A DNA stretch of 30,772 nucleotides from a virus, in IMG/VR virus record IMGVR_UViG_3300006790_000073, positions 1 through 30,772 of that record; one strand, written 5' to 3'. The notes below the pieces were generated by a model, which searched no databases, was not told where the DNA came from, and worked only from the letters and a program-made list of their open reading frames with translations. Positions 8,584 to 8,895 of this stretch are shown piece by piece (within the stretch, counting starts at the first letter, position 1; every line of letters starts with the position of its first letter). The translations under genes and the position numbers were made by a program.

Positions 8584-8895
8584 TCAGTCGTGAACTTTCC
8601 AGCCGCGACCTATGCCGACTGTGATGAAGTATGACCGCTCTTCGCAGCTGACTGTAATTGCGACATTTCTGCGGGTTTCAGGGTCTGTTCGAGGCACTTG
8701 CCCGCCCATTGAATACACCTCACTGCAAGCGTGCCCGCGCTGGTCCAGCACATCCTGCATCCATGTCGCAAGCGCTTCCGGTGACATTTCGTAGGCTGCA
8801 AGGTCTTCCTGAAGCTCTGGTGTCGCGATGACTTCGGCCAGTGCGCCGGATGCCGCCGCCATCGCGACGAACAGGGTTGCAATTTTAATTTTCAC
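8584..8895 (-). CDS. small secreted (periplasmic) protein in the immunity region
   Basis: 103 aa from a GTG at 8895 with GGAGG eight bases upstream. The N-terminus VKIKIATLFVAMAAASGALA is a classic Sec signal peptide ending in an A-L-A cleavage site. The mature part of about 83 residues has two cysteines (GHACSEV and TVSCEER) that could form a disulfide. It continues with ELQEDLAAYEMSPEALATWMQ and ends ITVGIGRGWKVHD. It lies between the repressor and the left operators and is transcribed in the same direction as the repressor, the position of rex in lambda. It is probably expressed in the lysogen. A superinfection-exclusion or envelope role is inference; I do not recognise the family. Confidence 0.8.
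   Translation of the reverse strand: MKIKIATLFVAMAAASGALAEVIATPELQEDLAAYEMSPEALATWMQDVLDQRGHACSEVYSMGGQVPRTDPETRRNVAITVSCEERSYFITVGIGRGWKVHD

Follow-up and report, generated by a model that had tools for sequence, protein, structure and literature searches.

In the immunity region of a phage contig (IMG/VR record IMGVR_UViG_3300006790_000073; the whole stretch of 30,772 nucleotides that was analyzed is called the window), the slot that separates the repressor from the left operators is occupied by a short gene under purifying selection. In related phages the same slot holds mutually unrelated exported proteins or is empty, and a LexA-type box precedes it wherever such cargo is present. We tentatively interpret the slot gene as an exchangeable, SOS-gated and exported cargo gene, most likely encoding an envelope-level exclusion factor, in temperate Rhodobacteraceae phages. 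Neither the LexA box nor the exchange of unrelated exported cargo was part of the original prediction, and the literature searched, with incomplete coverage, yielded no description of the two together in an immunity region.

Immunity region and slot gene

The left end of the prophage carries a tRNA-Cys gene (31-104) beside a tyrosine integrase (Phage_integrase, 221-1237), and because of this pair the phage is classified as temperate, with a likely attachment site at the same end. The repeat TAGTCTAATTATCCTA is found as two exact copies on the left and as a third copy with two mismatches before the cro-like gene (Table 1); the number of copies expected by chance is zero. The inferred leftward promoter PL (TTGACT...TAGCGT) has a 17-nt spacer that holds one of the left operator copies, and the cro-like and CII-like genes are read rightward. 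The slot gene thus lies between the repressor and the left operators and reads in the repressor's direction, as originally described, which is the position of a rex locus. The gap between these two genes of the same orientation is 156 nt, and we found no intrinsic terminator on that strand within it, nor any Rfam element at 7900-9900. According to Pfam the repressor has no S24 peptidase domain, and the repressors of the relatives are of about the same length.

Several neighboring genes deserve mention. The first gene after PL is conserved at 81-95% in related phages and has no family match; its product is a candidate antirepressor or early regulator, and any transcript running through the slot would enter it. 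The left operon further encodes DUF5131, DUF4031 and NYN-domain proteins (1367-2434, 2427-2804 and 6449-7015, all on the minus strand) and an SNF2-type helicase (3118-5037). A NusG-like protein with a KOW motif, possibly a phage antitermination factor, is encoded in the early right region (14970-15635, plus strand).

Table 1. Features of the immunity region in the window, and families of slot cargo in the related loci
Feature	Position or locus	Strand	Basis or remark
First left-operon gene, 129 aa	8070..8459	-	conserved in related phages
Left operator copy, between -35 (8498-8503) and -10 (8475-8480) of inferred PL	8482..8497		exact repeat
Left operator copy, upstream of -35 of PL	8510..8525		exact repeat
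Slot gene, predicted exported protein, 103 aa	8584..8895	-	ORF call, sequence rules, dN/dS
Mature part of slot protein, with Cys57 and Cys84	8587-8835	-	sequence rules
Signal peptide of slot gene	8836-8895	-	sequence rules
Shine-Dalgarno AAGGAGG of slot gene	8904..8910	-	read from sequence
Element TTTCAATCCCTAGATGTAGGG, about 15 nt after the box	8968..8988	-	alignment
LexA-type box GAACATTAAGGGAAC, 36 nt after repressor stop	9001..9015	-	GAACN7GAAC pattern; host recA/lexA boxes
Phage repressor, HTH_3, 123 aa	9052..9423	-	Pfam
Right operator, in spacer of inferred PR	9482..9497		repeat copy, 2 mismatches
cro-like HTH gene	9508..9750	+	weak HTH_3 match, 1.7e-4
CII-like activator	9820..10281	+	Phage_CP76 / phrog_101
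Cargo family A	window, L002/L003
Cargo family B	L006, L010
Cargo family C	L007, L008		about 30% identical
Cargo family D	L011		N-terminal anchor
Cargo family E	L013
Cargo family F	L024		lipobox
Cargo family G	L027		lipobox

The slot gene starts with GTG, and AAGGAGG eight bases 5' of this codon makes a strong ribosome-binding site. Its product follows the plan of a Sec signal by sequence rules, with a lysine, a hydrophobic core and the cleavage site ALA^E, the predicted signal peptide being MKIKIATLFVAMAAASGALA^E; these results agree with the GTG-started gene, Sec signal and ALA site reported earlier. As also reported, the mature protein is 83 residues long and contains two cysteines. These, Cys57 and Cys84, are both kept in the intact relative from contig L002 and probably form a disulfide. 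By this signal the slot protein, like exclusion proteins, would be exported to the periplasm or membrane, presumably via Sec.

Apart from the window, only two viral contigs, L002 and L003, yielded homologs of the slot protein, in both cases in the same slot; the L003 copy is frameshifted, which may be a sequencing error. The genes from the window and L002 are 83% identical, with a dN/dS of 0.125 and with 12/10/36 differences at the three codon positions, and therefore the slot gene is a real coding gene under purifying selection. A family known from three contigs only could be suspected of being a chance ORF or a decaying gene without function, but this reading is hardly credible, being already contradicted by the dN/dS and the codon-position bias, with the strong ribosome-binding site and the signal peptide as further evidence against it.

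The slot protein has no match in Pfam, PHROGs, NCBIfam, PADLOC or the PDB sequences, in agreement with the original statement that it belongs to no described family, and tblastn searches of phage and plasmid records revealed no relative; none of these resources links it by sequence to an exclusion family already described. The protein has no recognized enzyme, toxin or adhesion domain, and among 394 sampled genomes of the Phaeobacter host's family there is no homolog, the best matches (E about 0.003 per genome) being at chance level. The structure prediction proposed originally for the 83 mature residues was carried out with AlphaFold from two sequences and gave low-confidence models (pLDDT 60 for the whole protein and 68 for the mature part, the latter with an alpha-alpha-beta4 topology), with no significant structural match: Foldseek found nothing at E<0.001, and all VIA-align Z scores were below 5. 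The best of them (3.8-4.2, from the model with pLDDT 68) point to cystatin/monellin-like and colicin M immunity protein (Cmi) folds; we do not rely on these assignments.

Exchange of slot contents among related phages

Using the repressor as a query, we collected and compared 18 related immunity regions, which belong to viral contigs and to prophages of Antarcticimicrobium, Phaeobacter, Rhodobacteraceae KLH11, Thioclava, HKCCE4037 and Albibacillus. Proteins of seven or more families, unrelated to one another, were found in the slot, and each has a signal for export at its N-terminus (Sec, membrane anchor or lipobox); other slots are empty, as in L009, L012 and L048. The possibility that the seven are one diverged family was rejected, since BLAST and phmmer link only the A-A, B-B and C-C pairs. 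Export signals are rare elsewhere in these loci: when a simple rule was applied to 206 non-overlapping ORFs from 11 loci, 8 looked exported, and seven of the eight are the slot gene; the rule missed the slot genes of L004 and L024 (ORF finder start upstream of the likely one) and of L011 (the anchor fails the charge filter). The prediction of an exported protein in a rex-like slot is supported, and in related phages this slot is repeatedly filled by exported proteins of unrelated kinds.

As family B is present in each of the two well-supported repressor clades (100/99), the cargo has moved between phages. Such exchange of unrelated exported proteins in one slot fits an exclusion or conversion module. 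The cargo ends 24-94 nt short of PL in most loci, with no terminator between the two; in L024 a terminator-like hairpin intervenes.

Two further loci show particular features. The slot of L026 is occupied by an antisense gene (6493-7557, minus strand; about 311-354 aa) that lacks both a Pfam match and an export signal. The family D protein (L011:6551-7180) has a C-terminal domain (..YVDAQNAFGAMIR..) in common with proteins of other phages (L066-L071), several of which have a putative N-terminal membrane segment.

LexA-type box and proposed control of the slot gene

In each of the 14 box-bearing loci tested, three of which have an empty slot, the box lies 28-39 nt past the stop codon of the repressor; its form is GAACN7GAAC except in the two most distant loci, where it is GTTCN7GTTC. 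The conserved columns are the four-base halves. Other copies of the box occur at 0.035 per kb, which corresponds to about 0.003 expected per locus in the tested stretch. The same box is found upstream of recA and lexA in six of six host genomes examined. The SOS box of Caulobacter is GTTCN7GTTC (PMC9578287), and LexA sites of the Roseobacter group have both GTTC and GAAC forms in Dinoroseobacter (PMC6473078). By its pattern, GAACN7GAAC is a predicted alphaproteobacterial LexA site, and the slot gene therefore has upstream of it a host-type box that is conserved between relatives. The four Albibacillus loci, which are the only ones without the box, are also without cargo (one-sided Fisher 0.023, a weak association as the loci are related). 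After the box, most loci contain a loosely conserved motif, (t)GCAAyCnCnAgATGttG (8968-8988 in the window), often as an imperfect inverted repeat GCAAC/GTTGC.

The retention of the box in phages with an empty slot, together with repressors that have no self-cleaving domain, suggests that the box serves the phage itself, probably as part of its own induction circuit. Since no protease domain is seen in the repressors, the phages must detect DNA damage by another route, and host LexA bound at the box would be the simplest candidate sensor, by analogy with the LexA-controlled antirepressors of the Gifsy phages (PMC3121763) and with phage GIL01 (PMC9437464), in which host LexA is the direct SOS sensor and induction does not rest on repressor cleavage.

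Because the position of the box between the repressor and the slot gene is conserved, SOS-inducible expression appears more likely than expression in the quiet lysogen. The original claim that the protein is expressed from the lysogen is therefore doubtful as stated; basal expression, for example by read-through from the repressor gene, may occur. The same orientation, the 156-nt gap and the lack of a detected terminator would also fit a classic rex-like arrangement, in which the slot gene is co-transcribed with the repressor in the quiet lysogen and the LexA box is irrelevant to the cargo; we regard it as improbable, because every locus with cargo also has the box, at a constant spacing downstream of the repressor. 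Given that most loci have no terminator between cargo and PL, a transcript induced by SOS could continue into the left operon. However, the L024 hairpin separates the two, so that a transcript common to cargo and left operon is not obligatory, and this argues against a general need for read-through.

Possible function of the slot protein and comparison with known systems

In the interpretation that we prefer, the cargo of an exchangeable immunity-region slot in this group of temperate Rhodobacteraceae phages would be transcribed leftward from beside the LexA box after the repressor gene, would be mostly silent in the quiet lysogen, leak or read-through apart, and would rise once DNA damage inactivates LexA. 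The product would be exported by Sec, probably with a Cys57-Cys84 disulfide, would work in the periplasm and would most likely exclude incoming phages at the envelope, in lysogenic or induced cells. Superinfection exclusion is a plausible guess by analogy with the periplasmic Glo protein of phage K139; we place it first on account of the slot, the export and the speed at which unrelated families replace one another, Glo and Ltp being the precedents.

Two other roles, lysogenic conversion and a lytic-phase function, are close rivals of exclusion. The cargo might serve the host in envelope stress or as a surface or niche trait, rather than exclude phages: accessory 'moron' genes, described in general terms in PMC7067206, likewise show a swapping of unrelated exported proteins within a single slot, and a LexA box would tie such a trait to stress. 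We consider conversion rather unlikely, given that the 394 genomes sampled around the Phaeobacter host contain no homolog and that the protein has no recognized enzyme, toxin or adhesion domain. Comparably unlikely, in our view, is a role at induction or in lytic growth, with an envelope protein that is triggered by SOS and readies the cell, for example by delaying lysis or blocking superinfection. The box would put peak expression at induction, and T4 Spackle, a 75-aa periplasmic disulfide protein that inhibits the incoming tail lysozyme (PMC7677548), provides a precedent, but a slot with seven unrelated families, or none, argues against an essential lytic role, and the predicted alpha-alpha-beta4 model differs from the all-helical Spackle fold.

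Against the preferred interpretation stand the lack of a known exclusion protein with either sequence homology or a significant fold match, and the fact that LexA control would be superfluous for a classic exclusion gene expressed in the lysogen. We also found no convincing sigma-70 promoter at the box, and the L024 hairpin and the four Albibacillus loci without box and cargo count against it as well. A more elaborate and quite speculative proposal is an SOS-armed module for envelope protection, in which LexA, and not the phage repressor, would gate a transcript that first encodes the exchangeable, exported exclusion protein and then continues across the left operators into the early operon. 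If true, DNA damage would arm the cell surface against rival phages and at the same time start the induction of a phage with a non-self-cleaving repressor.

The slot gives dense and inexpensive access to unrelated exported phage proteins, by synteny and not by homology, and these proteins are candidates for envelope-level exclusion in marine Rhodobacteraceae. The box, in turn, is a candidate SOS switch, directly testable, for repressors without a peptidase. In a study of Sulfitobacter, phage regulators were found to lack the catalytic domains common to well-characterized repressors, leaving the lysogenic-lytic switch unknown (PMC7305329); the LexA box offers a testable answer to this question, with the Sulfitobacter phages standing outside the loci compared here.

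The lambda rexAB genes have the same slot and orientation, after the repressor and before the left operator. RexA resides in the cytoplasm and RexB in the inner membrane, both are co-transcribed with cI, and no LexA box is known between cI and rex. Among exported proteins, Glo of the Vibrio cholerae phage K139 is described as soluble, periplasmic and active in superinfection exclusion; the study that reported it dealt with the K139 control region and is titled 'immunity, exclusion, and integration' (PMC3952083). Going by this description, Glo resembles the predicted slot protein as an exported protein of a prophage control region; the phage records searched by tblastn contain no relative of the slot protein. 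Ltp of the Streptococcus phage TP-J34 is likewise an exported exclusion protein of a lysogeny module and blocks DNA injection (PMC3952083), but it is a lipoprotein of a phage with a Gram-positive host and is transcribed in the prophage state. T4 Spackle is similar as a small mature periplasmic protein with a disulfide that acts in exclusion (PMC7677548), and differs as the product of an early gene of a lytic phage. Finally, the antirepressor genes of the Gifsy phages lie outside the immunity region, whereas here the LexA-type box is inside it and precedes exported cargo.
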